Origin: Subtercola lobariae
Lineage (GTDB): Bacteria; Actinomycetota; Actinomycetes; Actinomycetales; Microbacteriaceae
Reading direction: 5' to 3'
NCBI RefSeq assembly: GCF_014640255.1
Contig: NZ_BMGP01000005.1
Location: forward strand, 294,880 to 358,879
DNA length: 64,000 nucleotides
The notes under the pieces are model-generated. The model was given only the letters and a program-made list of their open reading frames with translations. It did not search any database and was not told where the DNA came from. The position numbers were made by a program, and so were the translations under genes. This document shows, one piece after another, positions 9,736 through 28,915 of this stretch; position 1 is the first letter of the stretch; each line of letters starts with the position of its first letter.

Positions 9736-10800
9736 ATGGGGGGAAGCGTGGACACACCGTCGTCAGGGCCGACCAAGCGCTCGAAAGTCATCGGGCTTTC
9801 TGTCTTCGCTGCCGTCGCCGCCCTGCTCATGGCAACCGGAATCGTGGTGCAGGTGCAGCACGACACCGCCCAGCACGACGCAGCGGTGACCGTCGCAGTT
9901 CAGGCCACCGACGAGCTCGCGGCTGCGACCTCCGCTCGGGATGCCGCACTCGACTCCCTGCGCGCGACCACGGTCGCTGCCTCGACGTTCCAGACCGCCG
10001 TAACTGCCTCGCTCGCCGAGACCGACGGCTTCGTCGACCCGGATGCCCGCACCGCCCTCACCGCGGCCGAGCCCGCCCTTGCCACCGAGCAGACGACCGC
10101 CGTCGCGCTGCTGCCTGCAGACACCTCAGCCGCCTCCACTGCAACGACTGCCTCAACCACCACGGTGTCGTCGGTAAAGACACCCGACCTCGACGCACTC
10201 TCGACCGGTGATCTCTCGTCATACACGGCCACGACTCGTGGCAGCATCGCAGCAGTCAATGCGAAGGCGACGACGTACGACACCGAACGCATCAACCTGG
10301 TTTCGGCTATGCACGACAGCGAGATCGTGCTGCTTCGCGAGGCCGCATCGGTCGCATCGCAGGGCGCCACAATCGTGGCGGCGACCCAGAGCGCCGACCA
10401 GCCGTCGAAAGACGCCCTCACCGCTTCGATCTCAGCGGTCGCGGCCGCAGTCGCCGCCCCGACCGCCTTCAACGCCGCCGGATCGAGCACCCTGACCACC
10501 GCGCTCAGCAGCTACGTTTCGGCAGCGAAGGCCGCGCAATCGAACGAGGCTGCCGCCGAAGCAGCGAAGGCGAAAGCCGAGGCCGCTGCCGAAGCAGCGC
10601 GCGAGGCGGCACAAAATAGCTCGTCGTCGTCGTCGAGCTCGGGTTCATCGGGTTCTGGCACCGGTGGGTTGGTAGCAGTCGACCCAGCAATCCTTGCTGC
10701 GCAACTAGCGAAGTTCGAACAGGCGACGATTGACAATATGCACGCCAGCAACATTGCGGCCGGCAACTGCGTCATCTTTCCCTCGTGGTGCGGGTATTAG
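9736..10800 (+). CDS. Membrane-anchored extracytoplasmic hypothetical protein, coiled coil
   Basis: 354 residues. One N-terminal membrane helix (VIGLSVFAAVAALLMATGIV, about residues 19-38) follows a short positive tail. A long Ala/Thr-rich, probably helical ectodomain then extends to about residue 285 and ends in AAEAAKAKAEAAAEAAREAA. A Ser/Gly linker (about 295-310) leads to a small conserved-looking tail with two cysteines (GNCVIFPSWCGY). I do not recognise the family; the layout resembles Microbacteriaceae exported proteins of unknown role. ATG 9736 is used; GTG 9748 is possible. It diverges from the glucose-6-phosphate dehydrogenase-like gene. Confidence 0.65.
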   Translation: MGGSVDTPSSGPTKRSKVIGLSVFAAVAALLMATGIVVQVQHDTAQHDAAVTVAVQATDELAAATSARDAALDSLRATTVAASTFQTAVTASLAETDGFVDPDARTALTAAEPALATEQTTAVALLPADTSAASTATTASTTTVSSVKTPDLDALSTGDLSSYTATTRGSIAAVNAKATTYDTERINLVSAMHDSEIVLLREAASVASQGATIVAATQSADQPSKDALTASISAVAAAVAAPTAFNAAGSSTLTTALSSYVSAAKAAQSNEAAAEAAKAKAEAAAEAAREAAQNSSSSSSSSGSSGSGTGGLVAVDPAILAAQLAKFEQATIDNMHASNIAAGNCVIFPSWCGY

Positions 10801-10871
10801 CTCAGTCGTGCGGCCAGCAGGCGTATCGTTTCGAACGGAATTTGTTCACCTCCGATTCGATTGAGGTTTTC

Positions 10872-12566
10872 ATGAGCATCACTGTCGACACTGACGTCGT
10901 TCATCACGGCAACACCGACTACGACCCGAGCGCCTTTCGAAACGTGTTCGAGCACAACTTCACGTTCGCCTCTGCGGTCGAACGCAACACCCATCGTTTC
11001 GCGAACCGGCCAGCGATCTCAGACCCGTCGACCGGCCGCAGCTACACCTACCGCGAACTCGGCGAGGTCACTGGCGCTCTCGTCGCCGGTCTCGCCCAGC
11101 AGGGCATCGGGGTGGGCGATGTGGTCGCCTACCAGCTGATGAACCGGCCCGAGTTCGCATTTCTGTATGTGGCCGCCCAGGGGCTTCGAGCGGTGAGCTC
11201 GCCGATGAACTTTCGCCTCGCCCCCGCCGAGACCGCGCACATACTGAACGACTCAGAACCCGCGATCTTCGTCTACGAGACCTGGGCGACGGCCGAGGTG
11301 AGCACCGCGCTGAGCCTTGCGCGCCACCAGCCCCGACTACTCGTTGCCGTGGGCGACGGCGATGTGGTGCCGGGTTCGCTGCGGTTCGACGAACTGCTCG
11401 TCGTGGGCGCACCGACGTTCCGCGCGCCGGCAGATGCCACCGTGTGGGATGAGACGAGCCGCCTCTACACGTCAGGCACCACCGGTATGCCGAAAGCTGT
11501 GCCGCTGACGAGTCTCAACGAGGTGCTCACCGCGCATGACGCGATCATCCACTTTCCCCTCGGCCCCACCGACAAGACCATGAACATGTCGCCGTGGTTT
11601 CACCGTGGCGGCAACTACTGCGCGGGCCCGAACTCGATCTTCTACGTGGGCGCCGAGGCGGTGTGCTTGCAGCAGTTCACGCCCGACGCCGTGCTCGACG
11701 CGGTGCAGAACTCCAAGCTGACCTACGTCATCGGTGCCCCGACGAACCTCGAGCGCCTCGCCGACGAGCAAGAGGCGAACCCCCGCGACCTCAGTTCGCT
11801 CAGCGGCATCGTGACCATGGGTGCCCCGCTCGACCGCGCCGCGGCCCTGCGTTATCAGCGCGTGCTGACGAAGCGCATCGCGAACGGCTACGGCACCACC
11901 GAGGCGTTCTGGAACACCTATTTGCGCCCCGAAGACCTGCCCGACGCCGCAGGCGCCGCCGGCCGCGCCTGCCTCGACGACGACGTTGCCGTCGTGAAGG
12001 TCTATGCCGATCACCTCGCTGCACCAGACGACTTCGCCGACAAGAACTCGCACGAAATCGGCGAGGTCATCATGCGCACGGTGAAAAGCGGTTACGCCTA
12101 CCGCAACAACCCCGAAGAAGAGGCCGAGAAGTTTCACGACGGCTGGATCTACCCGGGCGACCTCGCCAGCTGGAACGAGAACGAGATAGTCACCATCATC
12201 GGCCGCAAAGACGACATGATCATCTCGGGCGGCGAGAACGTGCATCCGGTGCAGGTCGAAGAGGTGCTGGCCGGGCATCCCGATGTCGCCGACAGCATCG
12301 TGGTGGGCCTGCCCGACGAGCAGTGGGGCGAAGTGGTCGTTGCGTACATTCAGCCGAGAGAGGGGCGGATGCTCGACCGAGCAACCGCGGCGAAACAGCT
12401 CGAAGACTTCACCCGCGAGAGCGTCGCGCTGGCCGGCTACAAGCGCCCCCGGCGCTACACCTTCGTGACGGAGCTGCCCTACACAGCCACCGGCAAGAAG
12501 CAGCACTTCGTTCTGAAGAAGCAAGCCCCGGCCGACGATGCGGCCGGCAGGTTTATCACGCCGTAG
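10872..12566 (+). CDS. Class I adenylate-forming acyl-CoA synthetase
   Basis: 564 residues of the ANL superfamily. The phosphate loop is LYTSGTTGMPKAVPL, the motif after the first half is NGYGTTEAFWNTY, the hinge region WIYPGDLASW leads to IIGRKDDMIISGGENVHPVQVEEV, and the catalytic lysine is in PYTATGKKQHF near the C-terminus. These enzymes activate a carboxylic acid with ATP and transfer it to CoA. Length and motifs fit medium- or long-chain or aromatic acid ligases; the substrate is not readable. ATG 10872 is chosen because the upstream part of the frame is not conserved. The MFS exporter gene starts 96 bp downstream on the same strand. Confidence 0.88.
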   Translation: MSITVDTDVVHHGNTDYDPSAFRNVFEHNFTFASAVERNTHRFANRPAISDPSTGRSYTYRELGEVTGALVAGLAQQGIGVGDVVAYQLMNRPEFAFLYVAAQGLRAVSSPMNFRLAPAETAHILNDSEPAIFVYETWATAEVSTALSLARHQPRLLVAVGDGDVVPGSLRFDELLVVGAPTFRAPADATVWDETSRLYTSGTTGMPKAVPLTSLNEVLTAHDAIIHFPLGPTDKTMNMSPWFHRGGNYCAGPNSIFYVGAEAVCLQQFTPDAVLDAVQNSKLTYVIGAPTNLERLADEQEANPRDLSSLSGIVTMGAPLDRAAALRYQRVLTKRIANGYGTTEAFWNTYLRPEDLPDAAGAAGRACLDDDVAVVKVYADHLAAPDDFADKNSHEIGEVIMRTVKSGYAYRNNPEEEAEKFHDGWIYPGDLASWNENEIVTIIGRKDDMIISGGENVHPVQVEEVLAGHPDVADSIVVGLPDEQWGEVVVAYIQPREGRMLDRATAAKQLEDFTRESVALAGYKRPRRYTFVTELPYTATGKKQHFVLKKQAPADDAAGRFITP

Positions 12567-12662
12567 AGTTGACGGGGGTAGTTAGCGTTGCCGAACTAAC
12601 GCGCGAACACCCGCACCCCACAACCCCTGCCAAACCCCGCCGCCTCACCTCTGAAGGGCCCC

Positions 12663-15578: not shown

Positions 15579-16967
15579 GTGCAGAACCCGTATAGCGTGA
15601 CGCCCGCCGCGGTGCGGCATGCGGGTGAGATCGCATACGAAACACGCGTCGAAGCCGGCCTCTTCGTTCCCGGCGTTCGGCCCCTCGTCGAGGAGTCGTG
15701 GCAGCGTTCGCTCGAGCTGCACCTCGACCCCGACCGCATCGTTCCGAGCTTCGATCTCGACGATGAGGGGTTACGCGAGTATCGCAGGGAGCATCCGCTT
15801 TCGCTGGTGCTGCCGGTCATCCATCGCCTGCTCATTCAGCACACCTTCGACACCGGGCTGATCATCGCGGTGGGCGACCAAGCCGGTCGCCTGCTCTGGA
15901 TCGACGGCGACCGCGAGTCACGACGCACGGCGGAGGGCATGCTCTTCGTCGAGGGCGCAAACTGGTCTGAAAAGTCGGTGGGCACGAGCGCGCCAGGCAC
16001 TGCGCTGGCGCTCGACCACGGTATTCAGATCGGCGGCGCCGAACACTTCTACCGCATCGTGCACCCGTGGAGCTGCACAGCCGTGCCAGTGCACGACCCC
16101 GCAACCGGCGATATTCTCGGCGTCGTCGACATCACCGGGGGCGACAATGCCGTTCTGCCGACCACCCTCCCGCTGCTCGAAGCTGCGGTCGCAGCGGCAG
16201 AGGCTGAGCTGCGCATCCATCAGCTCACCGCGCGCGAGCATACGCGCGCCGCCCCTCGAGTGATCACCCTGCAGAGCCCGGTTCGTGTTGTGTCGAACCG
16301 GCCGCCTTCTCGGGCGCGAGGCAGTTCGGCGGCTGAACCGCAGTCTCAACCGTCGACGGATGCCCTGCAGCTCTCAGTGCTGGGCCGCGAACTCGGGCGG
16401 CTGACCTCGGGCTCTCGTGTCATCGAACTCAGCGCGCGGCACTCGGAGATACTCACGCTGCTCGCCTGGCACCGACACGGGCTCTCTGCCGAGCAGCTCG
16501 CCGACAAGCTCTACTCGGGCGCGGGCGCCAATGCGCACTCGGTGGCCACGCTGCGTGCCGAGATGGTGCGGTTGCGCGCGGTTCTCGCCGACACGCAGAC
16601 CGGGCTACAGCTCTCGTCGCGCCCGTATCGGCTGAGCGGCCCGCTCGACCTCGATGCGCATCGCGTGCTCGCGTTTCTCGAACGCGGGGCGCACCGGGTG
16701 GCGCTGGCTGCCTACTCTGGCCCGGTGCTGCTCGGCTCCGCCGCTCCGGGAATCGTCGAAATTCGGGCCGAGGTGAGCAGCAACGTTCGCGAGTCACTGC
16801 TGAGCGACGGGTCGGTCGAGGTTCTGCTCGACTACACCCGCAGCGACGAGTGCGCTTACGACCGCGAGGTGTGGGTGCAGTGCCTGCAGCGGCTGCCGGC
16901 GAGATCGCCGAAACGGGCATCCGTGGTCGCCCGCATCGAACGCATCGACGCCGAGCTGGCGCGCTAA
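15579..16967 (+). CDS. GAF-domain transcriptional regulator of the aldehyde dehydrogenase operon
   Basis: 462 residues from a GTG preceded by GGAG. An N-terminal segment VRPLVEESWQRSLELHLDP matches the start of AcoR-like regulators. A GAF domain follows (about 80-205; GRLLWIDGDRESR, VEGANWSEKSVGTSAPG, HPWSCTAVPVHDPATGDILG). After a disordered linker, the C-terminus (about 275-385) looks like a winged DNA-binding region (LTLLAWHRHGLSAEQLADKLY, SVATLRAEMVRLRAVL). No AAA sigma-54 domain is present. Homologues sit next to acetaldehyde dehydrogenase genes in actinobacteria, and here the enzyme starts 113 bp downstream. It probably senses an aldehyde or alcohol signal. Confidence 0.82.
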   Translation: MQNPYSVTPAAVRHAGEIAYETRVEAGLFVPGVRPLVEESWQRSLELHLDPDRIVPSFDLDDEGLREYRREHPLSLVLPVIHRLLIQHTFDTGLIIAVGDQAGRLLWIDGDRESRRTAEGMLFVEGANWSEKSVGTSAPGTALALDHGIQIGGAEHFYRIVHPWSCTAVPVHDPATGDILGVVDITGGDNAVLPTTLPLLEAAVAAAEAELRIHQLTAREHTRAAPRVITLQSPVRVVSNRPPSRARGSSAAEPQSQPSTDALQLSVLGRELGRLTSGSRVIELSARHSEILTLLAWHRHGLSAEQLADKLYSGAGANAHSVATLRAEMVRLRAVLADTQTGLQLSSRPYRLSGPLDLDAHRVLAFLERGAHRVALAAYSGPVLLGSAAPGIVEIRAEVSSNVRESLLSDGSVEVLLDYTRSDECAYDREVWVQCLQRLPARSPKRASVVARIERIDAELAR

Positions 16968-17080
16968 AGCGTTCGCGGCCGCAACTCGGTGCAACGTAGC
17001 CGCAACCGGGCTCGACGTACCGTGGTGCCAGGCGCCCGACGTGGGTGCCCCTCGACAACGACGTCTAAAGGATGAGACAC

Positions 17081-18604
17081 ATGACGGTCTACGCAGCACC
17101 GGGAAACCCCGACGCGAAAGTCACCTTCAAACCCCGCTACGAGCACTGGATCTGCGGCGAATGGTCGAAGCCCGTCAAGGGCCAGTACTTCGAAGACATC
17201 TCGCCGGTCAACGGCAAGCCCTTCGCCGAGGTCGCACGCGGCACCGCAGAAGACATCGACAAGGCTCTGGATGCTGCGCACAGCGCGGCCCCGGCGTGGG
17301 GTCGAACCTCCCCCACCGAACGAGCGGCGGTGCTCAACAAGATCGCTGACGTCATCGACGCGAACCTCGAGCTGCTGGCCGTGGCCGAGACCTGGGACAA
17401 CGGAAAGCCCATTCGCGAGCCGCTGTATGCCGACCTGCCACTGGCATCCGACCACTTCCGATACTTCGCGTCGGCCATTCGCGCCCAAGACGGCGATCAC
17501 GCCGAAATCGACCATGACACCGTGGCGTACCAGTTTCACGAGCCGCTCGGGGTCGTGGGGCAGATCATCCCGTGGAACTTCCCTATTCTGATGGCGGTTT
17601 GGAAGCTCGCCCCGGCGCTGGCCGCCGGCAACGCGATTGTGCTGAAGCCGGCCGAGCAGACCCCTGTGTCGATTCTGGTGCTGATCGAACTGATCGGCGA
17701 CATTCTGCCGCCCGGGGTGCTCAACATCGTCAACGGATTCGGCGTGGAGGCCGGCAAGCCGCTCGCGTCGAGCCCGCGCATCCGTAAGATCGCGTTCACT
17801 GGTGAGACCAGCACCGGGCGACTCATCTCGCAGTATGCGAGCGCGAACCTGATTCCGGTGACTCTGGAGCTCGGCGGAAAGTCGCCGAACATCTTCTTCA
17901 GCGATGTGGCCGACCAGAACGACGCGTTCTACGACAAGGCGCAAGAGGGATTCACCCTCTTCGCTTTCAACCAAGGCGAAGTCTGCACGTGCCCGAGCCG
18001 CGCGCTCATTCAGAAGCCCATTTACGACTCGTTCCTCGACACAGTGACCACCCGTACGGCCAAGGCGATTCAGGGCAACCCGCTCGACACCGACACGCAG
18101 GTCGGTGCTCAAGCGTCGAATGACCAGCTCGAGAAGATTCTGAGCTACCTGGATATCGGCAAGCAAGAGGGCGCGAAGGTGCGGCTCGGTGGCGAGCGCG
18201 CCGATCTCGGCGGCGACCTGGCAGAGGGCTACTACGTGCAGCCGACCATCTTCGAGGGCAACAACAAGATGCGTATCTTCCAGGAGGAGATCTTCGGTCC
18301 GGTCGTTGCGGTGACCTCGTTCGATGACTACGACGACGCCATTTCCATTGCGAACGACACCCTCTACGGTCTCGGCGCTGGCGTTTGGTCGCGCAACGGA
18401 ACCGTCGCGTATCGAGCGGGGCGTGACATCCAGGCCGGTCGGGTGTGGATCAACAACTACCACGCCTACCCCGCGGGCGCAGCGTTCGGCGGCTACAAGA
18501 GCTCGGGCATCGGCCGCGAGAACAACAAGCTGGCGCTCGACCACTACCAGCAGACGAAGAACCTGCTCGTGTCGTACAGCGACAACGCGCTCGGCTTCTT
18601 CTAA
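17081..18604 (+). CDS. NAD-dependent (acet)aldehyde dehydrogenase
   Basis: 507 residues of the aldehyde dehydrogenase superfamily, closest in outline to ExaC/AldA-type acetaldehyde dehydrogenases. The oxyanion region is [21 protein letters not shown], the NAD motif FTGETSTGR, the general base lies in [11 protein letters not shown], and the catalytic cysteine is in [18 protein letters not shown] and [12 protein letters not shown] also match. It oxidises acetaldehyde or a related aldehyde to the acid. ATG 17081 is preferred because AAAGG lies 9 bp upstream; ATG 17072 is too close to it. A DUF779 gene follows and a GAF regulator precedes, the standard three-gene module. Confidence 0.92.
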
Positions 18605-19136: not shown

Positions 19137-21404
19137 TTACGGCGCGAGTGTGCGCGCGGCCGCCAGGCCCTCTGCGGTGGCGCGCACGGCGTCGACCGAA
19201 CGGGCATCCTTTGCCCCGCCCACCACTGCGAACGGAATGCCCGAAGCCTCGAGTTCTGCCTCGAGTGGGTTGTGCGACTCTTGGCCGGCGCACACGACGA
19301 CGGTGTCGGCGCGGATGCTCAGCTTTTCACCTTCGGGGCCGAATACCTCCACCGCGGTGGGGGTGATGCGGCGGTAGTGCACTCCCCCGAGCATCCGTAC
19401 GCCTGCGTCTTTCAAGCGACCGACCGCTACCCAGCGTGAGCTGATGCCGATTCCGTCGCCGAAGCGGCCTGACCGGCGTAGCACGGTGACGAGTTCGCCG
19501 GCGCGCGGCTGCGGGCGGTTGGCGCTGACGGCCGGGTTGCGTTGAGCGACGCCCGCGCCCACCAGCCCGGTCGACGGCAGCAGCCCGTAGCGGCGGGCGA
19601 ACTCGAGCGCGCGGTCTGCTTCGGCGCTCGGTTCGGTGAGGTACGCGGCGATGTCGACGCCGATGCCGCCGCCGCCGATGATGACGACGTGGCCGTCGGG
19701 CACGCCCTCGCGCAATGCTCGCTCGTAGCTGATGACGTGCGGCAGGTCGGCTCCGTCGACCTCGATCGCGCGCGGAACAACCCCCGTGCTGAGGATGACC
19801 GCGTCGAACGGGCCCCCGATCAGGTCTGCAGCTCGGGCGGTCGTGCCGAACCGGAGGGTCGCACCGAGGTCGCGCAACTCGGCGATGGCAGCCCTGGCGG
19901 TGGCCGCATAGTCTTCTTTTCCCGGAATACGCGCCGCCAACCCGAACTGACCGCTGGGCTCGGCGCGGGCCTCGAAGAGCGTCACGTCGTGTGCGCGGCG
20001 AGCTGCGTCGACCGCCGCCGCGAGCCCTGCCGGGCCCGCCCCCACCACGGCGATACGTCGCGGGCGCACGGTGAGCGTCAACGGAAATCGGCTCTCGTTT
20101 CCGGCCCGGGGGTTCACTAAGCACGACACTCGTGCACCCACCAGCGAACGGTCGATGCACGCCTGGTTGCACCCGATGCATGTGTTGATCAGGTCATACG
20201 TTGACTCCCGGCTGCGCGCCACGATCTGCGGATCGGCCAGAAACGGCCGCGCCAGAGCCACGGCGTCGATGAGCCCACCCTGCAGCACTTCTTCGACGTC
20301 GCGCAGGTCGGTCATCCGGTTGCTGGCGATGACGGCAACCCGGCGCGACCCTTGGGCGTGCGTCACGAATTTCGGCGAACGTGGGGCACCGGATGCCCGA
20401 ACCACCCCCGCGATGCGCTCGGCGTAGCCCAGCCAGGCCCCGTGCGGCACCGCTGCCTGCACCGTCGGAACCCGCGACTCGTGCCACCCCACCCCCACGC
20501 TGATGGCGTCGACACCGCCCTCAACCAGCTCCCGCACGAGCTCGTCGACCTCGTCGGCGCTGCTCGACCCGGGCATGAGGTCGTCGCCAGAAATGCGCAC
20601 CGTCACCGGTACCCCTGACGCCCTCTCAGCCGCGGTGTTCTCCGCCGATCGAGTCGCGGCCGGGCCCGCGTCGGGGACCGCGTCGACAGCCGATAGCGAG
20701 ACACGGAACCCTACCGCGGCGCGCACCGCCGCCAGCACCTCGCGTGCGAAGCGGCGGCGGCGCCGCGCGGTGCCGCCCCACTCGTCGTCGCGCAGGTTCG
20801 TCAGCGGCGAGCAGAACTGGTTGATCAGGTACCCCTCCGACGCCATGATCTCGACGGCGTCGAACCCGAGCGCCACGGCCACGCGCGCGGCCGAAGCGAA
20901 ATCGCCGATCGTGCGCCAGATTTCATCGTCGTTCAACTCCCGGGGAATGGCGCCCCGAGCAGCCCGCCACGGCACCGCCGACGGCGCCACCTGTTCGAGC
21001 GGCGATCCATCGGCCGCAGTGAGCCCGTCGAGCAACGCGTAGCGCCCCGCATGAAACAGCTGCGCCGAAACCAGACCCCCAGCCGCATGAACGGCTTCGA
21101 CCGCGTGGGCGAGCCGAGCATCCGTCGCCGCTTCGCCGAGCACCGCGTAGTCGGCCGCCCCACGCCCCTCGGGGCTCACCGCAAGGCCGCCCGTGATGAT
21201 CAGCGCCGCGCCACCCTCAATCCGCTCGCGCCAGAACGCGGCCAGCGCCTCTCCCCCGTCGTCGACGAGCTCGAGCCCGGTGTGCATGCTGCCCATCACC
21301 ACTCGATGCGGTACCTCGAGCGCTCCCAGCCGCCACGGCGAAAACGTGCGGCCGAGTGGATGCCCGGCAGCACCGCCTCGAACGGCCCCCGTCGCCGAAC
21401 TCAC
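19137..21404 (-). CDS. 2,4-dienoyl-CoA-reductase-like flavoenzyme (PlmM/AnsM-type), cyclohexanecarboxyl-CoA operon
   Basis: 755 residues combining an old-yellow-enzyme FMN barrel (about 18-400), a 4Fe-4S cluster and an FAD/NAD(P) domain (about 448-755). Catalytic residues line up with E. coli FadH: Y192 in SEGYLINQF and H308 in GVGWHESRVPT. The cluster cysteines are C409, C412, C416 and C428, with the same spacing as FadH. GAGPAG (455-460) is the FAD loop. About 30 extra residues (236-265) interrupt the barrel between FRVSLS and VTVRISGDD. It is translationally coupled by an ATGA overlap to the SDR gene. In the shikimate to cyclohexanecarboxyl-CoA pathway a related protein is thought to reduce a dienoyl intermediate; this role is inferred from the operon. 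Confidence 0.85.
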   Translation of the reverse strand: MSSATGAVRGGAAGHPLGRTFSPWRLGALEVPHRVVMGSMHTGLELVDDGGEALAAFWRERIEGGAALIITGGLAVSPEGRGAADYAVLGEAATDARLAHAVEAVHAAGGLVSAQLFHAGRYALLDGLTAADGSPLEQVAPSAVPWRAARGAIPRELNDDEIWRTIGDFASAARVAVALGFDAVEIMASEGYLINQFCSPLTNLRDDEWGGTARRRRRFAREVLAAVRAAVGFRVSLSAVDAVPDAGPAATRSAENTAAERASGVPVTVRISGDDLMPGSSSADEVDELVRELVEGGVDAISVGVGWHESRVPTVQAAVPHGAWLGYAERIAGVVRASGAPRSPKFVTHAQGSRRVAVIASNRMTDLRDVEEVLQGGLIDAVALARPFLADPQIVARSRESTYDLINTCIGCNQACIDRSLVGARVSCLVNPRAGNESRFPLTLTVRPRRIAVVGAGPAGLAAAVDAARRAHDVTLFEARAEPSGQFGLAARIPGKEDYAATARAAIAELRDLGATLRFGTTARAADLIGGPFDAVILSTGVVPRAIEVDGADLPHVISYERALREGVPDGHVVIIGGGGIGVDIAAYLTEPSAEADRALEFARRYGLLPSTGLVGAGVAQRNPAVSANRPQPRAGELVTVLRRSGRFGDGIGISSRWVAVGRLKDAGVRMLGGVHYRRITPTAVEVFGPEGEKLSIRADTVVVCAGQESHNPLEAELEASGIPFAVVGGAKDARSVDAVRATAEGLAAARTLAP

Positions 21405-22246
21405 CCCTCGTCTGACGCAGCAGCAGCCGCCCCGAACACCGCATCGTGCAGGTCGCCCGTCGTGTCGCTCCAGAACGGCGGAGCCACCACCGTGAGCCCG
21501 CCGTCGACTGTCAGCGTCTGCCCGGTGATGTAGCCCGCAGACGGCGACAGCAGAAAGTCGATGGCCGACGCCATGTCATCGGCGGTTCCGGGCCGGCCGA
21601 GCGGCAGCTTCTCGATCACCGTCGACATCGGCGCCATGCCGGGCACCCGGTTGTAGAAGAAGTCGAGCGAGTCGGTGTCGATCAGCCCGCCATTGACAGC
21701 GTTCACGGTGATGTTACGCGGCCCGAACTCGGTAGCCATGTACTTCACGTACATCTCGGCCGCCGCCTTCGCCGCCCCGAGCGAGGCATAGGTGGGAAAC
21801 GCGCGAAGGGAGCCGTAACTGGTCACCACGATGATGCGGCCGCCCGCGGCATCCATCAGCTCTACAGCGCGCTGCGCACCGAGCACGAACGAGCGAACGT
21901 TCATCGCCCAGTTGCGGTCGAGGTGGTGCAGCTTGAGCTGCGAGACGGGCTTGAAGGCACTGGCTGCCGCGTTCGCAACGAACATGTCGAGTCGACCGTA
22001 CTTCGCGCGCACCGCGTCGAACATGGCGTCGATGTCGTCGGGCTCTTCGATGTTCGCCTGAACGGTCATGCCGTCGGCACCCGCCGCCCGAACCTCGCTC
22101 AGAGTCTCTTCGGCGAGATCGGCGTTCGACTTGTAGTTGACGACCACGTCGATGCCGCGCGCGGCGAGTTTCAGCGCGAGAACCTTGCCGATTCCGCGCG
22201 AACTGCCGGTGATGAGGGCGACAGGCGCCTGTGAGGTGGATGCCAT
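21401..22246 (-). CDS. chcA: FabL/ChcA-like enoyl reductase of the SDR family
   Basis: 281 residues. The NADP loop is LITGSSRGIG (residues 11-20). At the active site the usual YxxxK is absent: the residue four before K160 is leucine. Instead Y153-X6-K160 (TYASLGAAK) matches the spacing of FabL-type enoyl-ACP reductases. The C-terminus has the usual QTLTVDGGLTV. GGAGAAA precedes the ATG at 22246; the open frame upstream is not used. The protein fits an enoyl thioester reductase. With its neighbours it corresponds to ChcA, 1-cyclohexenylcarbonyl-CoA reductase, which completes cyclohexanecarboxyl-CoA formation. The symbol is assigned from operon context plus active-site pattern, not from an alignment. 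Confidence 0.7.
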   Translation of the reverse strand: MASTSQAPVALITGSSRGIGKVLALKLAARGIDVVVNYKSNADLAEETLSEVRAAGADGMTVQANIEEPDDIDAMFDAVRAKYGRLDMFVANAAASAFKPVSQLKLHHLDRNWAMNVRSFVLGAQRAVELMDAAGGRIIVVTSYGSLRAFPTYASLGAAKAAAEMYVKYMATEFGPRNITVNAVNGGLIDTDSLDFFYNRVPGMAPMSTVIEKLPLGRPGTADDMASAIDFLLSPSAGYITGQTLTVDGGLTVVAPPFWSDTTGDLHDAVFGAAAAASDEG

Positions 22247-22334
22247 GCGGCGGTTTCTCCTTGTTCTCGTGCGATGTTCGTATCGGGCTATGAGGGAGAG
22301 CACAGACGAGTGCTCTCCCGCCCAGCGGCGCTTT

Positions 22335-23498
22335 CTAGTAGACGGCCGTGCCGTTCAGCACCGACCGCGCCACGACCTGCTTCTGAATTTCGTTCGTGCC
22401 CTCTTCGAACCGCGGCGCACGTGCATCGCGGTACACCCGCTCGATGGTGTTGCGCTTCCAATACCCCTGGCCGCCGTGCACCTGCAGTGCCTTGTCGGTG
22501 ACGCGTGTGATCATGTCGACCGCGATCATCTTCGACGCACTCGAGAGGATGCCCGCATTTGCCGCCCCCGTCTGAAACGCCCGCGCGGCCTCGAGTACAA
22601 GCGCCCGCGCTGCAGCGATGTCGGCATAGTTCTCGGCGAGCATGAACTGAATCGCCTGGCGCTCGGCGATCTTCTTGCCGAACGTCTCGCGCCGGTTGGC
22701 GTACTCGACCGCGAGTTCTTGGGCCCGCTCGGCCAGCCCCACGCAGCTCATCGCGACAGAGACTCGGCTCGGCAGCAAGAAGCCGCCGAGCGTCACGGCG
22801 AGCCCGTCGCCCTCGTCGCCAAGCCGTGCCGATGCCGGCACCCGAACATCCGTGAACCGCAGAATGGCGTGATCGGTGCCTCGAATGCCCATGGTCTCTG
22901 AATCGTCGACGACCTCGACGCCCGCCAGCCCCGTGTTCGGCAGCAGCAGCGCCACGAAACCGTCTTTGCCCGTCGACCCCTCGATGCGCGCGGCCATCAG
23001 CCAGTAATCGCATTTCACGCCGAACGTGATCAAGTGCTTCTCGCCGTTCAGCACGTACGAGTCACCCTCGCGGCGAACCGTCGACCGAATATCGGCGCCC
23101 GACCCGGCGGTCGCCTCGGTCAGCGTGAAGGCCACGAGCACATCACCCGCGACCGACGGCTTGATGATGTTCTCGCGCTGCTCGTCGGTTGCGAACGGTT
23201 CCATCGCCCGCCACGTTCCATTGATGACGTGAACCAGCATGCGCACCGACCCGTGCGAACGGGAGAAGATCTCCATCAGTTCGAGATACCGGTCGAACGG
23301 AATGCCCTGGCCGCCGAGATACTCAGGGGCGGCCAGCGAGAAGTACCCGCGCGACTTCAAATCGCCGAAGAGCGAGGCAGGCACCGAACCCGTCTTCTCG
23401 ATGGTGTTCGCGTACTCTTCGCCGGGCCCGCGAACCCAATCGTCGATTTCGTCTTTCAGGGCCGAAAACGACTCTTCGGTGAAACTCACTGCCGTCAC
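22335..23498 (-). CDS. Acyl-CoA dehydrogenase (PlmL/AnsL-type), cyclohexanecarboxyl-CoA operon
   Basis: 387 residues with all acyl-CoA dehydrogenase landmarks: FTLTEATAGSGADIRSTV, SYVLNGEKHLITFG (FAD/substrate region), ANRRETFGKKIAERQAIQF, VHGGQGYWKRNTIERVYRD and the catalytic Glu near residue 366 in FEEGTNEIQ. The ATG at 23498 overlaps the stop of the preceding ligase fusion (ATGA). In the cyclohexanecarboxylate pathway a dehydrogenase of this type is thought to introduce a ring double bond during removal of the shikimate hydroxyls. The same fold also serves in beta-oxidation, so the assignment depends on the neighbours. Confidence 0.85.
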   Translation of the reverse strand: MTAVSFTEESFSALKDEIDDWVRGPGEEYANTIEKTGSVPASLFGDLKSRGYFSLAAPEYLGGQGIPFDRYLELMEIFSRSHGSVRMLVHVINGTWRAMEPFATDEQRENIIKPSVAGDVLVAFTLTEATAGSGADIRSTVRREGDSYVLNGEKHLITFGVKCDYWLMAARIEGSTGKDGFVALLLPNTGLAGVEVVDDSETMGIRGTDHAILRFTDVRVPASARLGDEGDGLAVTLGGFLLPSRVSVAMSCVGLAERAQELAVEYANRRETFGKKIAERQAIQFMLAENYADIAAARALVLEAARAFQTGAANAGILSSASKMIAVDMITRVTDKALQVHGGQGYWKRNTIERVYRDARAPRFEEGTNEIQKQVVARSVLNGTAVY

Positions 23499-26400
23499 TT
23501 CTCCTTGGTCTGTTGAGAGACGAGAGCGCCACGCACGAGTGCGGCGGCGCGTTCCCGCAGTATATTCTTCTGGATCTTTCCCACCGCGTTGCGCGGCAGC
23601 TCGTCGATGAACTCAAGCCGCTCGGGCCAGTAGTACTTCGATACGCCGTTGGCGCCGAGGTACGACTGAACGTCGCCGAACGTCACCTGCATCGCGTCAG
23701 GCGACGAGGCTTTCGCCGGCACAACGAAAGCGCAGGCGCGCTCGCCGAGCCGGGCATCCGGCATCGCCACGATTGCCACGTCAGAGATCAGCGGATGCTG
23801 GTAGAGCAGGTTCTCGATCTCGACAACGGGTATCTTCTCGCCGCCGCGATTGATCACGTCTTTCACCCGGCCGGTGATGTGCAGGTAGCCGGCCGAGTCG
23901 ACCACCGCGAGATCGCCCGTGCGGTACCAGTGGTCTGGCGTGAACACATCTGCGGTGAGATCGGGGCGGTCGAGGTAGCCGCTGAACATGGTGGGTGAAT
24001 GCAGCTCGTAGTTGCCCTCGATTCCGCGGGGCATTTCCCTGCCCTCGTCGTCGACGATGCGAATCCGGATGCCCGGCAGCGGCCGCCCGTCGGTGCCCCA
24101 CGCATCATCGGCGAGGTCGCCGGGCCCGGCCAACGTACCGAGGCAGGTCTCGGTGGTGCCGAACGCACCCAGTACCGCGGTGCCGAGCACGTCGCGGGCC
24201 TCCCGCGCTAGAGCGCGGGGAACGGCCGAGCCGGTGGCAACGAACATCCGCAGCGTCTCGGGTGCAGCGGCGCCGTCTTTCACTGCACCGACGAGATCGT
24301 CGACGAAAGCCGCCGCGGCTTGTACAAAGGTCGCCCTCGCTTGGCCGAACGCCTGGTCGAGGGCGATCTGGGCGCTCCACACCGGCTGTATGACCACCGC
24401 GACCTTCAGCCGCCAGGCCAGCAGCATGCCGTACAAGAAGCCGGTCTGGTGGGCCAGCGGTGACGGCACGTAGATGCGGTCAGTCTCGTCGAGCCCTGAC
24501 TGGCCCACGTGCAGGGCCGTGGCGACGCTCAGCGTGCGGTGCGTGTGCTGCACGCCCTTCGGCTCACCGGTGGTGCCCGAAGTGAAGAGCAGCTGGCACA
24601 CGTCGTCGGGGCGCGGAGCTCGTGACTGAATGAGGTCGGTGTCGGGGCTGACCGATTCGAGGGCCTGGTCGTAATACCGCCAAGTCCAGTTCATTGCGGC
24701 GAACGCGTCGGCCGCGTTCTCGGGAATCGGCGGCACGTCGGTGGCGATGTCGACGCTGTGCCGCTCGTCTGTGCGCAACACGATGATCTGTTCGAGGGCG
24801 AGCGGGCGACGGTTGATGCGAGCCTCTTCTGCCGCGTCGAGCAGCTCGATCGAGGGCCGGCGCTTGCGAAAGACGTTGGGCAAGAAAATGACGCGGGCAC
24901 GCGACCGTGACAACGTCATCGTGGTCTCGCGCGGGCCGAACACGGGCATGATCGGCGTGGCAACTGCGCCGATCTGAACGATGCCGAGCGTGATCGCCAC
25001 GAATTCGCTCCAGTTCGGTAGCTGCAGTGCCACCGACTCGCCCCGCTGCACACCCAGGTCGAGCAGAAGGGCAGAGACACGGTCGGCCTCGGCCTGCAGT
25101 TCGGCCCAACTGGTGCTGATGGGCGACTCGGCGCCGACCTCGACGATCGCCGTCTCATCCGGCGCCTCGGTCGCGAGTCGGCGCACCTGCTCGGTGAGTA
25201 CGAGAGGCCGGCCCGCCTCGATCTCGGCGGCGAGGGCCGCTGCCGCTACCGCCGCGTCTCGCGCGGTCGGCAATGCTGTCGCACCGGTCGGAGTGTTCTC
25301 GTCGCCAGACTCGCCCGTTTCGGCGATCTCCTCTTGACGGGTGAAGCCCACCTCGTTGTGTGTCAGCTCGGTGGTCGGAGCCGCTGCCACGTCGATGTCG
25401 AGCCCGATGGTATTCATCGCCTCGAGAAATGCGGGGTACGAGATTCGGTAGGCGCGTGGATAGGTCAGGCTCGACATGCCGCTGGCGGTGGTCGCCGCTA
25501 CCGACAGCGACATCAGCACCCGGTGATCATTGAAGCTCGACATGGCCGCGCCATGCAGCGTGTCGACGCCCGTGACTCGCAGTTCATCCGTCTGCTGCTC
25601 TGCCTTGCCGCCCAGACGGTTCAGCTGCAGCATCGCGGCGACGCGGTCAGACTCCTTGAGGCGAATGTGCCCCACGTTGTGCAAGCGACTCGTGCCGTCG
25701 GCGAATGACGCCATCGAGGCGAGCACCGGCAGCAGGTCGGGAATCGGCTGGCAGTCGATGTCGATCGACCGCAGCCTGATTCCATCGTGCTGAATGCGCA
25801 CGAACCCCGTTTTCGCGTCTTTCTCGAGCGGCACGCCCATGGCGGTGGCCAGGTCGAGAAATTCGGCCTCTGGATGATCGGTCTCGCTGGCCTTCAGCGC
25901 AGACAGGCCGCGGAACAGCACATTCGACGGGTGAATCGCCGCCGCCGCGATGCCGAACGCGGCCGACCCGATGTCGGGCGGAATCGTATAGCTCGTCGGC
26001 ACCGCCGTCTGGTTCGCCGCAACACGATAGGTGAGCCAGTCGTCGGAGTGCTCAACGGTCAGACCGAACAGGCGCATCATACGAACGGTGAGCTCGACGT
26101 ACGGCTGCTCGTTGAGCGCTCCGCCGGTGACGTGAATGGTGGTGTCGGTCGAGGCGAACGGAGCGAGCAAGAGCAGGCCGCTCAGCCATTGCGAGAGCGT
26201 GCCCGCAATGCTGACCTCTCCGCCTCGCGGCCGCCGCGGTTGTACGGTGATCGGCGGGCAGTTTCGGTCTGAGTCGAGCTGCACGCCCATGTGCGTGAGC
26301 GAATCGAGCAGGGCCTTGATGGGCCGGCGGCGAAAGTACTTCATGCCGGTCAGCGTCATCGGCCGGTCGGCCAGCGCCGCAAGGCCCACCATGAAGTACA

Positions 26401-26710
26401 GCGTCGTTCCCGACGAGCCCACGTTGAGCAGGCCCTCTGCACCACGCGACCCGTGGTCGACGATCGGCGCGGCTCGATACGGGCCGCCGGTCACGATGTA
26501 GTCGTCGCCGACGACGCGGATGCTCGTGCCGAGCGCCCTCAGCACGCCGATGGTCCACTCCACCTGCCGCGTGGTCGAGATGCCCGAAATGACGCTTGTT
26601 CCGGGTGCGAGTGAGGCGAGCACCAACGCGCGATGTGCGTGGTATTTCGAGACGGGAATGTCGAGTTCACCCTCGAGGGAGGTTGATGTTCCACGAACCA
26701 CGAGCTGCAT
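23495..26710 (-). CDS. EPSP-synthase-like/acyl-CoA-ligase fusion (PlmJK-type), first gene of cyclohexanecarboxyl-CoA operon
   Basis: 1071 residues. Residues 1-440 are an EPSP-synthase fold; 510-1071 are an ANL acyl-CoA ligase; an Ala/Thr linker joins them. In the first domain K22, R27, R129 (RRRPI), Q174, D325, K352, E353, R356, H396 and R397 are retained. The S23 equivalent is Tyr, the R100 equivalent Y105 and the K411 equivalent I423, so part of the phosphoenolpyruvate/S3P site is lost. The ligase has LLFTSGTTGEPKGV (707-720), YRTGD and K1045 in NAVGKIQK. ATG 26710 has AAGGGG 7 bp upstream and is preferred over ATG 26728. A fused protein of this kind is known from the phoslactomycin cluster, where the unfused equivalents are AnsJ and AnsK (recalled from the literature). 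Probable role: activating shikimate and helping its early elimination chemistry. Confidence 0.85.
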   Translation of the reverse strand: MQLVVRGTSTSLEGELDIPVSKYHAHRALVLASLAPGTSVISGISTTRQVEWTIGVLRALGTSIRVVGDDYIVTGGPYRAAPIVDHGSRGAEGLLNVGSSGTTLYFMVGLAALADRPMTLTGMKYFRRRPIKALLDSLTHMGVQLDSDRNCPPITVQPRRPRGGEVSIAGTLSQWLSGLLLLAPFASTDTTIHVTGGALNEQPYVELTVRMMRLFGLTVEHSDDWLTYRVAANQTAVPTSYTIPPDIGSAAFGIAAAAIHPSNVLFRGLSALKASETDHPEAEFLDLATAMGVPLEKDAKTGFVRIQHDGIRLRSIDIDCQPIPDLLPVLASMASFADGTSRLHNVGHIRLKESDRVAAMLQLNRLGGKAEQQTDELRVTGVDTLHGAAMSSFNDHRVLMSLSVAATTASGMSSLTYPRAYRISYPAFLEAMNTIGLDIDVAAAPTTELTHNEVGFTRQEEIAETGESGDENTPTGATALPTARDAAVAAAALAAEIEAGRPLVLTEQVRRLATEAPDETAIVEVGAESPISTSWAELQAEADRVSALLLDLGVQRGESVALQLPNWSEFVAITLGIVQIGAVATPIMPVFGPRETTMTLSRSRARVIFLPNVFRKRRPSIELLDAAEEARINRRPLALEQIIVLRTDERHSVDIATDVPPIPENAADAFAAMNWTWRYYDQALESVSPDTDLIQSRAPRPDDVCQLLFTSGTTGEPKGVQHTHRTLSVATALHVGQSGLDETDRIYVPSPLAHQTGFLYGMLLAWRLKVAVVIQPVWSAQIALDQAFGQARATFVQAAAAFVDDLVGAVKDGAAAPETLRMFVATGSAVPRALAREARDVLGTAVLGAFGTTETCLGTLAGPGDLADDAWGTDGRPLPGIRIRIVDDEGREMPRGIEGNYELHSPTMFSGYLDRPDLTADVFTPDHWYRTGDLAVVDSAGYLHITGRVKDVINRGGEKIPVVEIENLLYQHPLISDVAIVAMPDARLGERACAFVVPAKASSPDAMQVTFGDVQSYLGANGVSKYYWPERLEFIDELPRNAVGKIQKNILRERAAALVRGALVSQQTKEK

Positions 26711-27023
26711 AGCTACCCCTTCTCGCATGGCGTCACCCCGAGATTGCGGGGGTCAATGCGCGAAGAATCCGAAGAGTCCGGCGGTGCGATGCGAGCTACA
26801 GTGCTCTCTTATTTTCGCGATAGACGAAGCAAGCCAGGGGCAGCGTTTTCGTTTTTCAACCTACGCCTCACAACCATTTCTCAGCAAATCCAGGCTAGTG
26901 AGTTGTGATTTCACCACAACTGGGCACCGACCGCGTCTGTAGACAACCGAGAACCTCACGAATCTCGGAATACGCCGGCCAGCCCTGTGCGGCGAGCCGC
27001 CGTGCGGCTAGCCGCGCTGCGAA
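26711..27023. other. Intergenic leader of the cyclohexanecarboxyl-CoA operon
   Basis: This 313-bp stretch has no convincing gene. Next to the start codon it holds the AAGGGG ribosome-binding site, a small hairpin (CCCCG 26736-26740 with CGGGG 26747-26751), and further up a palindrome at 26901-26921. No promoter hexamers stand out. The end near 27 kb contains short GC-rich inverted repeats after the FMN reductase stop, possibly its terminator. Confidence 0.5.
26901..26921. promoter_or_regulatory. Palindrome upstream of the cyclohexanecarboxyl-CoA operon
   Basis: AGTTGTG (26901-26907) and CACAACT (26915-26921) form a perfect 7-bp inverted repeat with a 7-bp spacer, about 190 bp upstream of the operon's first start codon. 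It is the only clear operator-like site there. No regulator gene is adjacent. Confidence 0.4.
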
Positions 27024-27719
27024 CTACTGCGCGCCGTAGCCTCCGACGGGGCTGAAGCCGGCGGGCAACGCGAACGGGTCGACGATTCGGGATGAACGGT
27101 CTGAGAGTTGCACCAACGCTGTCAGCTCGCTCGCGGCACGAGCGATGCGATCGGGCAGGGCCGTAGCGGTTTCTCCGTTTGCGGGCGTGACCGCTCCGCT
27201 GCCCCAATCGCTCGAAGCCGCGTAGACCGAGGTGGGCACCACGATGGCATGCAGGTACGTGAAGAGCGGGCGCACGGCGTAATCCAGAGCGAGAGAGTGC
27301 CGCTCGGTGCCGCCCGTCGCCGCGATCAGCACCGGTAAGTCAGTGAGTGCGGTGGGCTCGATGATGTCGACGAACGACTTGAAAAGCCCGCTGTAACTCG
27401 TCGTGAAGATGGGAGTGACAGCGATGAGGCCATCGGCTGAGGCCAGAGCATCCAGAGCCTTCTGCAACGTCGGAGCCGCGAAACCGGTCAGCAGGTTGTT
27501 GGTGATGTCGTGCGCGAGGTCGCGCAGGTCGATCACCTCGGTGGTCACGTCGACACCCTTCTCGGTGAGCCGGTCGACGGTGGCCGTGGTGAGCCGGTCG
27601 GCCAGCAGCCGTGTCGACGACGGCTGGCTCAGCCCGGCAGAGACCACCACGAGGGTGCGTTCGGGTCTGGCGGCGTCAGTGTTGATATCGGCGCCAGAGT
27701 TCACTGCGTTCTCGGCCAT
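27024..27719 (-). CDS. NAD(P)H-dependent FMN reductase, CE1759-type
   Basis: 231 residues of the flavodoxin-like FMN reductase fold: RTLVVVSAGLSQPSSTRLLAD (phosphate loop), ASADGLIAVTPIFTTSYSGLFKSFVDII (FMN isoalloxazine region) and LIAATGGTERHSLALDYAVRPLF. It starts 2 bp after the end of an LLM gene and so forms a two-gene operon. CE1758-type monooxygenases and CE1759-type reductases are a recurrent actinobacterial pair. The reductase presumably supplies FMNH2 to the monooxygenase. Substrate unknown. Confidence 0.87.
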   Translation of the reverse strand: MAENAVNSGADINTDAARPERTLVVVSAGLSQPSSTRLLADRLTTATVDRLTEKGVDVTTEVIDLRDLAHDITNNLLTGFAAPTLQKALDALASADGLIAVTPIFTTSYSGLFKSFVDIIEPTALTDLPVLIAATGGTERHSLALDYAVRPLFTYLHAIVVPTSVYAASSDWGSGAVTPANGETATALPDRIARAASELTALVQLSDRSSRIVDPFALPAGFSPVGGYGAQ

Positions 27720-27721
27720 GA

Positions 27722-28915
27722 CTAATTGGCCTCAGACGCCACAGCTGAGACGGCATCAGCCGAGACGGCATCAGCCGTCACGGCGTCAGCCGAAGCGGCG
27801 TCGGCCGAAGCGACGATGGACTCACGTGCGGCCACTTCTGCAGCATCCCGAGCCGCGACCAGCGAAGCATGCGTGGGGCCGTCGGGCACCGACGCGGGGC
27901 GGTTCTCGGCGAACTCCTTGCGCAGCACCGGCACCACGTCTTCGCCCAAGAAGTCGAGCTGCTCGAGCACCGTCTTCAGCGGCAGGCCAGCGTGATCCAT
28001 CAAGAAGAGCTGGCGCTGGTAGTCGCCGAAGTAGTCACGCATCGAGGCGTACCGGTCGATGACCTGTTGCGGGCTGCCCACGGTGAGCGGGGTCTGCTCG
28101 GTGAAGTCTTCGAGCGACGGCCCGTGCCCGTAGACCGGAGCGTTGTCGAAGTACGGACGGAATTGGTTCACTGCGTCTTGCGAGTTCTTCGCCATGAACG
28201 CCTGGCCGCCGAGGCCGACGATCGCCTGCTCGGCAGTGCCGTGGCCGTAGTGCTCGAAGCGCGAGCGGTAGTAGCCGATGAGCTGCATGTAATGCTCCTT
28301 CGGCCAGAAGATGTTGTTCGCGAAGAATCCGTCGCCGTAGTAGGCAGCTTGTTCGGCGATCTCGGGTGAACGGATGCTCCCATGCCACACGAACGGAGGC
28401 ACACCGTCGAGCGGGCGAGGCGTCGACTGAAAACTCTGCAGCGGGGTACGGAACTTGCCCTCCCAGTTCACGTAGTCTTCGCGCCAGAGCCGGTGCAGCA
28501 GCGCGTAGTTCTCGATGGCGAGCGGGATGCCCTCCCGAATGTCTTTGCCGAACCACGGGTAGACCGGGCCAGTGTTTCCGCGGCCCATCATCAGGTCGAC
28601 TCGGCCGTCAGCGAGGTGCTGCAGCATCGCGTAGTCTTCGGCGATCTTCACGGGATCATTCGTGGTGATCAGCGTGGTCGCCGTGCTGAGCAGCAGTTTG
28701 TCTGTCTTGGCCGCGATGTAGCCGAGCGTCGTGGTGGGCGACGAGGAGAAGAAGGGCGCGTTGTGATGCTCGCCGAGCGCGAACACCTCGAGGCCGACTT
28801 CTTCGACCTTCTGCGCGATGGTCACGATGTTCTTGATGCGCTCGTGCTCGCTGGGGGTGTGGTTGGTCGTGGGGTCAGTGGTCACATCGCTGACGCTGAA
28901 GATTCCGAATTGCAT
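27722..28915 (-). CDS. LLM-class FMN-dependent monooxygenase, CE1758-type
   Basis: 397 residues. The barrel starts MQFGIFSVSDVTTDP and continues LEVFALGEHHNAPFF, TATTLITTNDPVKIAEDYAM and LADGRVDLMMGRGNTGPVYPWF. It is coupled to the FMN reductase gene 2 bp downstream. After residue about 360 the protein has a low-complexity Ala/Ser/Asp tail with four 5-residue repeats encoded by 15-bp DNA units. The barrel does not need this tail. GAGGG precedes the ATG. The upstream region shares the CGTTTGCAT/CGATA motif with the other LLM gene at 5101. Confidence 0.88.
   Translation of the reverse strand: MQFGIFSVSDVTTDPTTNHTPSEHERIKNIVTIAQKVEEVGLEVFALGEHHNAPFFSSSPTTTLGYIAAKTDKLLLSTATTLITTNDPVKIAEDYAMLQHLADGRVDLMMGRGNTGPVYPWFGKDIREGIPLAIENYALLHRLWREDYVNWEGKFRTPLQSFQSTPRPLDGVPPFVWHGSIRSPEIAEQAAYYGDGFFANNIFWPKEHYMQLIGYYRSRFEHYGHGTAEQAIVGLGGQAFMAKNSQDAVNQFRPYFDNAPVYGHGPSLEDFTEQTPLTVGSPQQVIDRYASMRDYFGDYQRQLFLMDHAGLPLKTVLEQLDFLGEDVVPVLRKEFAENRPASVPDGPTHASLVAARDAAEVAARESIVASADAASADAVTADAVSADAVSAVASEAN
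27747..27806 (-). repeat. 15-bp tandem repeat in LLM C-terminal tail
   Basis: Four units of 15 bp (GAGACGGCATCAGCC twice exactly, then two variants) encode the pentapeptide pattern ADAVS at the C-terminus of the LLM protein. Units of 15 bp keep the reading frame. Confidence 0.85.

Follow-up and report, generated by a model that had tools for sequence, protein, structure and literature searches.

A stand-alone gene cassette in Subtercola lobariae that probably supplies cyclohexanecarboxyl-CoA to membrane fatty-acid synthesis

Four adjoining minus-strand genes in a 64 kb stretch of Subtercola lobariae DNA (the whole stretch analysed, hereafter the window) raise the question of which acyl-CoA they make and which pathway receives it. 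A sequence-only reading had placed them at 19137..26710 in the order JK, L, ChcA, M and had proposed an operon for the cyclohexanecarboxyl-CoA starter of omega-cyclohexyl fatty acids; open reading frames and Pfam matches agree on that order. JK (23495..26710, minus strand; from the open reading frame, the choice of start and Pfam) is a fusion of an EPSP-synthase-like domain, J (about 25415-26686, by Pfam), with an AMP-forming acyl-CoA ligase domain, K (about 23576-25180, by Pfam). Its longest frame covers 23495-26728 (1077 aa counted from the first ATG), and the start at 26710 is better than that at 26728 because a GAAGGGG stretch lies 5 nt upstream of it. L (22335..23498, minus strand, 387 aa) belongs to the acyl-CoA dehydrogenase family by its Pfam and PDB matches. 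It is followed by a ChcA-like SDR enoyl reductase of the FabL type (21401..22246, minus strand; PDB, NCBIfam), 281 aa long from an ATG inside a mechanical frame that starts at 22303, and by M (19137..21404, minus strand, 755 aa), an FMN/FAD/Fe-S flavoenzyme like 2,4-dienoyl-CoA reductase (PDB, Pfam). The two overlapping junctions of the earlier reading are real, one between the JK stop and the L start (23495..23498) and one between the ChcA stop and the M start (21401..21404), both on the minus strand; they are not ATGA, as first described, since both read GTGA on the coding strand.

What was found, an EPSP-synthase-like domain joined to an acyl-CoA ligase and followed by an acyl-CoA dehydrogenase, ChcA and a flavin oxidoreductase, has counterparts in known systems. 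We take PlmJK to be an EPSPS-ligase fusion as well. The ansatrienin cluster (ansJ-M and chcA), presumably with separate J and K followed by L, chcA and M, has a polyketide context, unlike the window, and the ansatrienin-type or cyclohexylcarbonyl-CoA cluster, placed in another host, makes the CoA ester there from shikimate. Work on doramectin has drawn on such a cyclohexylcarbonyl-CoA gene cluster (Cropp 2000, as cited by PMC10295569). The gene table of PMC5852498 lists plmJK, labelled there an AMP-dependent synthetase and ligase, then plmL, ChcA and plmM after the polyketide synthase (PKS) genes. Compared by that table, the phoslactomycin-type clusters (lmP1-P4, pnP1-P4) match the window in all four genes and in the order listed, which bears out the equation of the two sets; their PKS genes are adjacent, whereas none lies near the window cassette or was found in its genome. 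To judge from these comparisons, the cassette is most likely of the known plm type, here in Microbacteriaceae without adjoining polyketide genes, and we consider it quite probable that the four genes form a unit of their own that supplies cyclohexanecarboxyl-CoA to membrane fatty-acid synthesis. Gene content, gene order, conserved catalytic residues, distribution, a PKS-linked homologue and a search of the genome that found no modular PKS are the observations that carry this reading. The homologue, which took the place of the Plm proteins in sequence comparison, is in G639, a large-genome actinomycete: a cassette of the same order and 47-60% identity lies beside a modular PKS, some 130 nt from a frame of more than 3000 aa that encodes KS, AT, DH, KR and ACP domains. 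In G909, J-K-L-ChcA adjoin an ACP gene and two genes for KAS III, the chain-starting enzymes, which also speaks for the cassette.

JK is present in 43 of 398 Microbacteriaceae genomes (14 of 85 genera), and in only four of the 12 genomes of the window's own genus, the other eight being without it. At 56 loci compared, J and K share a single open frame in 42 and are separate in 14, L is present in 54, and all 45 loci that have J, K, L, ChcA and M keep them on one strand and in one order. The unit is kept through 16 genera while its flanks change, and the prospect that its matches would prove unrelated, or its conserved context a different one, did not materialise. In some lineages the site has J-K-L but not M, or not ChcA. 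These cases do not fit a pathway of five fixed parts, and we counted them against the assignment, as we did the low frequency of JK within the genus. The cassette has an ffh-rpsP neighbourhood in 23 loci; five genera have it with ffh on one side and rpsP on the other, and a sixth is half-seen. Clustering of the flanks produced many shadow frames of GC-rich genes, and the families followed were ffh, GCS2, rpsP and an acyl-CoA synthetase. Ligase-only matches were excluded from the counts, namely G075/L097 (42%) and eight g93 genomes of the order-level search (36-39%). A plasmid search gave 123 matching records; in none did the match cover more than 80% of JK, and among the 30 matches listed all were through the ligase part only.

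In the strongest competing explanation, the product of the cassette, either cyclohexanecarboxyl-CoA or a ring acid reduced only in part, goes into a specialised metabolite or an acylated product instead of a membrane lipid. The published relatives sit in polyketide clusters (PMC5852498), the G909 genes with their ACP and KAS III neighbours could be a specialised cluster, and the patchiness within the genus would suit such a product. Against this, no KS motif occurs in the fetched Microbacteriaceae stretches (each at most 20 kb; the window, 64 kb), G639 alone having one. A search of the window's genome for the ketosynthase family gave two full matches, in frames of 496 and 441 aa, and two partial ones. 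None of the four is modular, and no modular PKS is seen because the full matches sit in frames of fewer than 500 aa; the genome is 98.67% complete, so that a missing piece is possible. As first described, the cassette stands without polyketide synthase genes beside it. Near cassettes elsewhere there are four long frames (over 1700 aa; one at L132, one at L133, two at L142), which are free of KS motifs. FabH is encoded at C3:161 kb, beside a ketosynthase and a frame that looks FabD-like by eye, so the genome combines a FabH with no competing modular PKS found at that completeness. The ffh-rpsP neighbourhood would also be an odd site for a specialised cluster. We regard a specialised product as improbable.

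Fatty-acid profiles bear on both explanations. Omega-cyclohexyl fatty acids are made by Alicyclobacillus, Sulfobacillus and Curtobacterium pusillum, presumably from the same starter unit, and Curtobacterium belongs to the same family as the window organism. Cyclohexyl acids in C. pusillum, on which the earlier reading had drawn, are reported in work cited by PMC3426160, and for Herbiconiux it is stated that "Cyclohexyl-C17:0 may be present" (PMC10011130). Profiles that fit a specialised product better are those of five new Herbiconiux strains, with no cyclohexyl acid among those named in PMC10011130, and of four Subtercola type strains, tabled without one in PMC5945732; the strains of either group may or may not carry JK. 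For Sulfobacillus, genes for omega-cyclohexyl acids are said to have been identified, though they are not named there, and the literature found, as available to us, names no gene set for such lipids in Microbacteriaceae. The interpretation as a cyclohexanecarboxyl-CoA starter operon is supported by the plm order, the G639 homologue, FabH without a modular PKS found, and reports of cyclohexyl acids in two genera of the family. It allows the makers of omega-cyclohexyl lipids among the Microbacteriaceae, whose taxonomy takes note of this trait, to be predicted from their genes, and the distribution of JK can be compared with fatty-acid profiles.

K and L also suggested a second rival, an alicyclic-acid catabolic cluster, in which K would be a cyclohexanecarboxylate-CoA ligase and L a cyclohexanecarboxyl-CoA dehydrogenase. 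K (Pfam AMP-binding at aa 517-919 of JK, E 7.1e-69, and AMP-binding_C) has the cyclohexanecarboxylate-CoA ligase TIGR03208 as its best NCBIfam match, and L, which has the N, M and C domains of acyl-CoA dehydrogenases, matches two models for cyclohexanecarboxyl-CoA dehydrogenase; its PDB matches belong to the acyl-CoA dehydrogenases and include caffeyl-CoA reductase 6fah and cyclohexanecarboxyl-CoA dehydrogenase 7xp7. The scores, however, are far under the equivalog cut-offs (421.5 of 792.3 bits for K; 178.5 of 650 and 130.6 of 575.35 bits for L), the cassette has no hydratase, hydroxyacyl-CoA dehydrogenase or thiolase by Pfam, its order equals that of the plm set (PMC5852498), and an EPSPS-like domain joined to a ligase, together with an enoyl-reductase-type SDR, points to synthesis. 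We rejected this catabolic (ali/bad) reading of K and L as highly improbable on those scores and the missing partner enzymes. K, L, ChcA and M are each under the cut-off of their best NCBIfam equivalog, which we also counted against the assignment to a cyclohexanecarboxyl-CoA cassette. Residues of L, ChcA and M are conserved: the RFEEG stretch of L, which we take to carry the catalytic Glu, is invariant in 54 rows; a Tyr-x6-Lys pair is invariant in 50 of 50 rows of ChcA, and four Cys are invariant in 43 rows of M. ChcA (Pfam adh_short_C2), with enoyl-ACP reductase 3oic as best PDB match and FabL as best NCBIfam match (247.7 of 328 bits, below the cut-off), appears to be of the enoyl-reductase type, a spacing of Tyr-x6-Lys being, on our assumption, that of such reductases. 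M (Oxidored_FMN and Pyr_redox_2) has 1ps9 as best PDB match (E 5.3e-134).

JK has a Pfam EPSP_synthase match at aa 15-438 (E 2.2e-78). J, at 307.8 bits, exceeds the 287.25-bit cut-off of the NCBIfam aroA model, and the positions corresponding to E. coli K22, R27, R124, D313, E341, R344, H385 and R386 are unchanged in it. That J is a second ordinary EPSP synthase with unrelated neighbours is scarcely credible all the same, since the genome has a separate AroA (C3:369696, 31% identical to J), so that J is not its sole EPSPS-like gene, the substrate-side residues are swapped for identical letters in all lettered rows, and J keeps company with K and L as counted above. Serines 23, 169 and 197, presumably the S3P-binding positions of EPSP synthase, are absent from J in every lettered row of the 56 loci: Ser23 is replaced by Tyr in 55 of 56, the lone exception being a gap, and Ser169 by Leu and Ser197 by Glu in all 56. 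Compared with AroA, whose family and catalytic residues J shares, the J subfamily shows S23Y, R100Y, S169L and S197E where the AroA of the same genome keeps the E. coli letter, and also N94S and K411R, where that AroA differs or is gapped. J is, by these residues, a distinct EPSPS subfamily, and the Tyr, Leu and Glu in place of the three serines suggest that its substrate is unphosphorylated. To our knowledge, the step that opens the route from shikimate to a cyclohexane ring has no biochemical assignment, and the change to Leu169 and Glu197 makes a testable prediction about its substrate. Residue markers (SKYH.HR, GSsG..LYF, LSQW, and NE before a Tyr) tell J from AroA, two proteins that annotation may mix up because J passes the aroA cut-off.

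For the cyclohexanecarboxyl-CoA cassette, we infer the lipid end product, the ChcB gene and every individual reaction, the chemistry of J included. J would act on shikimate, probably without the 3-phosphate, in a first elimination to a cyclic diene acid, which the fused ligase K would put onto CoA. The redox steps, which depend on flavin and NAD(P)H, would fall to L, M and ChcA. A crotonase-type isomerase encoded away from the cassette would, in the role of ChcB, give the 1-ene, and ChcA would reduce this to cyclohexanecarboxyl-CoA. FabH of the type II fatty acid synthase would then take it, and not a branched acyl-CoA, as starter, and the products would be omega-cyclohexyl C17/C19 acids. The window was said to lack ChcB, and no crotonase-type gene was matched in its 64 kb, nor within the 56 cassette loci, with seven of nine own-genome queries read in frame. 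Crotonase-family (PF00378) matches number nine in the own genome, none singled out as ChcB, and 2 to 34 in 11 other genomes of the genus; eight further flank stretches of G639, G777 and G909 gave weak ones (L141, 27-32%; L101, 35%).

A bolder proposal has two parts, and we advance it tentatively, as somewhat unlikely to hold in full. J would found a separate EPSPS-derived class acting on unphosphorylated shikimate, its retained PEP-type active site converting a ring hydroxyl into a leaving group, perhaps through transfer of an enolpyruvyl unit, and driving a 1,4-elimination; and part of the Microbacteriaceae would have the cassette in the core genome as a membrane-lipid locus, with a fixed site between ffh and rpsP in five or six genera and a place elsewhere in Subtercola.

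An acyl-CoA synthetase gene at 10785..12566 (plus strand) is a possible companion, with homologues beside J or M elsewhere. Its frame also matched at 45 loci across 16 genera, for the most part owing to a resemblance to ligase K. Matches of 72-77% identity lie 1.4-2.8 kb upstream of J in nine of nine loci of genera g11 and g26, and one of 60% lies 1.4 kb from M in G777. That it belongs with the cassette is suggested by these homologues and no more firmly than that, because in the window it is 6.6 kb off and on the opposite strand.

The operon had been read from sequence alone as encoding the supply of cyclohexanecarboxyl-CoA (CHC-CoA), the proposed starter for omega-cyclohexyl fatty acids, and its gene set and order support this reading, making it near certain that the operon is a CHC-CoA cassette. 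All four open reading frames were found at 19137-26710 on the minus strand; the two gene overlaps reported as ATGA both actually read GTGA. EPSP_synthase and AMP-binding domains (Pfam) share one frame, JK (1077 aa at 23495-26728 from its first ATG, 26710 being the better start), which is followed by acyl-CoA dehydrogenase domains (L, 22335-23498), an enoyl-reductase-type SDR (ChcA, 21401-22246) and an Oxidored_FMN and Pyr_redox_2 protein (M, 19137-21404). Among solved structures, the J part comes closest to EPSP synthases, L to acyl-CoA dehydrogenases, ChcA to an enoyl-ACP reductase and M to 2,4-dienoyl-CoA reductase. The aligned relatives show no change in the Tyr-x6-Lys pair of ChcA (50 rows), in L's RFEEG motif (54 rows) or in four cysteines of M (43 rows), and the TSGT.GePKgV surroundings and the C-terminal gk.qk of the ligase K are mostly kept (53 rows). 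The operon genes look undamaged. We infer the individual reactions, the gene for the isomerase step (ChcB) and the lipid product.

We compared 56 loci carrying J and K (the window, L009, L055-L096, L098, L099 and L129-L138), which cover all 43 Microbacteriaceae genomes retained below, G010 and genomes from wider draws. J and K lie in a single open frame in 42 of the 56 and are separate in 14. L accompanies them in 54 loci, ChcA in 50 and M in 47, and all 45 loci with every part show one strand and the order J-K-L-ChcA-M. Contig ends cut L076 and L081. Within the fetched stretches, L129 consists of JK alone, L089 is without ChcA and M, L132 and L133 are without ChcA, and L131 and L135-L138 are without M. 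Of the window frames at 10001-36000, only the four operon genes, their shadow frames and a K-like acyl-CoA synthetase have relatives in all 16 genera; no cluster of flank frames spans more than six genera. From these flanks and the absences in partial loci, J-K-L seems the least dispensable part of the cassette. L089, in G352, resembles a loss, as ChcA and M are kept in seven other loci of its genus; L129 is a second JK of G777, a genome that also holds a full cassette.

The cassette is patchily distributed in our whole-genome searches, all of which lie within the window's own phylum. In Subtercola, 4/12 genomes carry JK (E <= 1e-150), and two Subtercola MAG contigs, both falling within this genus group, carry a JK 81 and 83% identical to that of the window. 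When named genome contigs were scanned with the window protein, an approach that detects close relatives only, these two contigs came up along with one ligase match of 23%. The family search (E <= 1e-90) matched 44/398 genomes in 15/85 genera; the match in G075 was dropped, being a ligase of 42% identity with neither J nor L, leaving 43/398 genomes and 14/85 genera. Matches were found in 3/394 genomes of the class draw, 12/297 of the order draw (eight of them ligase-only), 5/246 of the phylum draw and 3/249 of the family of G639, a large-genome actinomycete; the window's own genome is counted in those of these four draws to which it belongs.

The genome has its own AroA, 31% identical over the J part. 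J could still be taken for an ordinary EPSP synthase: it exceeds the NCBIfam aroA cut-off (307.8 vs 287.25 bits) and, aligned with AroA and solved EPSP synthases, it keeps E. coli K22, R27, G96, R124, S170, Q171, Y200, D313, K340, E341, R344, H385 and R386. However, at positions 23, 100, 169 and 197, where AroA retains the E. coli letter, J has S23->Y (55/56), R100->Y, S169->L and S197->E (56/56 each), that is, in every row with a letter. N94->S and K411->R also occur, but AroA likewise differs or is gapped there. In E. coli EPSP synthase, positions 23, 169 and 197 surround shikimate-3-phosphate at its carboxylate and its 3-phosphate; the Leu and Glu of J at these places argue against a phosphorylated substrate. 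As the rows were selected for resembling the window protein, with J identities as low as 45%, this invariance is a subfamily trait and not independent proof. In a quick J tree with many weakly supported forks, the window and its genus fall in a 40-row group of Microbacteriaceae only; L093-L096, from three other genera of the family (g2, g8, g64), cluster with loci of other families, a hint of transfer.

Ketosynthase motifs occur only in L098 and L101, both of G639, and are absent from all Microbacteriaceae stretches fetched (mostly 20 kb, some shorter). In G639 the cassette begins ~130 nt after a same-strand frame of >3000 aa with KS, AT, DH, KR and ACP domains; a gene table in PMC5852498 lists the PKS genes lmA and lmB ahead of homologues of plmJK, plmL, ChcA and plmM. 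The window genome has four ketosynthase-family matches, none of them modular: two are full, in frames 496 and 441 aa long, and the others are short and partial. It also has three FabH C-terminal-domain matches, one being a 333-aa KAS III that adjoins a ketosynthase and a frame that looks FabD-like by eye. The cassette product is therefore likely used in FabH-started fatty acid synthesis, and the cassette likely serves membrane lipid. In L131 (G909), an ACP and two KAS III genes (11204-13724) lie immediately upstream of J-K-L-ChcA, possibly a dedicated chain-initiation set. Fitting phenotypes are C. pusillum (cited in PMC3426160) and Herbiconiux, for which PMC10011130 remarks 'Cyclohexyl-C17:0 may be present'; non-fitting are five new Herbiconiux strains with no cyclohexyl acid among the acids named (PMC10011130) and four Subtercola type strains, whose table lists none (PMC5945732). 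These phenotypes neither prove nor refute lipid use. With the Herbiconiux strains weighed in, our overall confidence is slightly lower, and we still hold a stand-alone CHC-CoA cassette feeding membrane fatty-acid synthesis to be quite probable.

Cassettes occupy a ffh/GCS2-rpsP neighbourhood in 23 loci (L057-L071, L073-L075, L078-L082): they stand between ffh and rpsP in 19, from five genera (g5, g31, g53, g57, g69), only the rpsP side is on the stretch in two g31 loci and one g22 locus, and only the ffh side in one g53 locus. The rpsP frames start <= ~1.5 kb from M. In five Subtercola genomes checked, two with the cassette and three without, the GCS2 and rpsP matches are 218-278 nt apart with no cassette genes between them, so the Subtercola cassettes stand at a different site. 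Three of the four carriers share this site (window, G005, G010); the fourth, G009, differs on one flank and runs into the contig end on the other.

The acyl-CoA synthetase at 10785-12566, 6.6 kb from the operon and on the opposite strand, has its best NCBIfam match, below cut-off, in a long-chain fatty-acid-CoA ligase. Besides the window, loci with it near the cassette are L083-L085, L087-L092 and L130. Matches of 72-77% identity lie 1.4-2.8 kb upstream of J in 9/9 g11/g26 loci. In G777 a 60% match sits 1.4 kb away from M, and L009 has a partial one of 90% at 2.9 kb from M; no other match across the searched loci exceeds 38%. As a cassette companion the synthetase is a lead only. Also adjoining the operon, at 27024-28915, are a CE1759-type FMN reductase and a CE1758-type luciferase-like monooxygenase, both passing NCBIfam cut-offs, and at 15579-18604 an ExaC-type acetaldehyde dehydrogenase (NCBIfam cut-off passed) adjoins a GAF-domain regulator.
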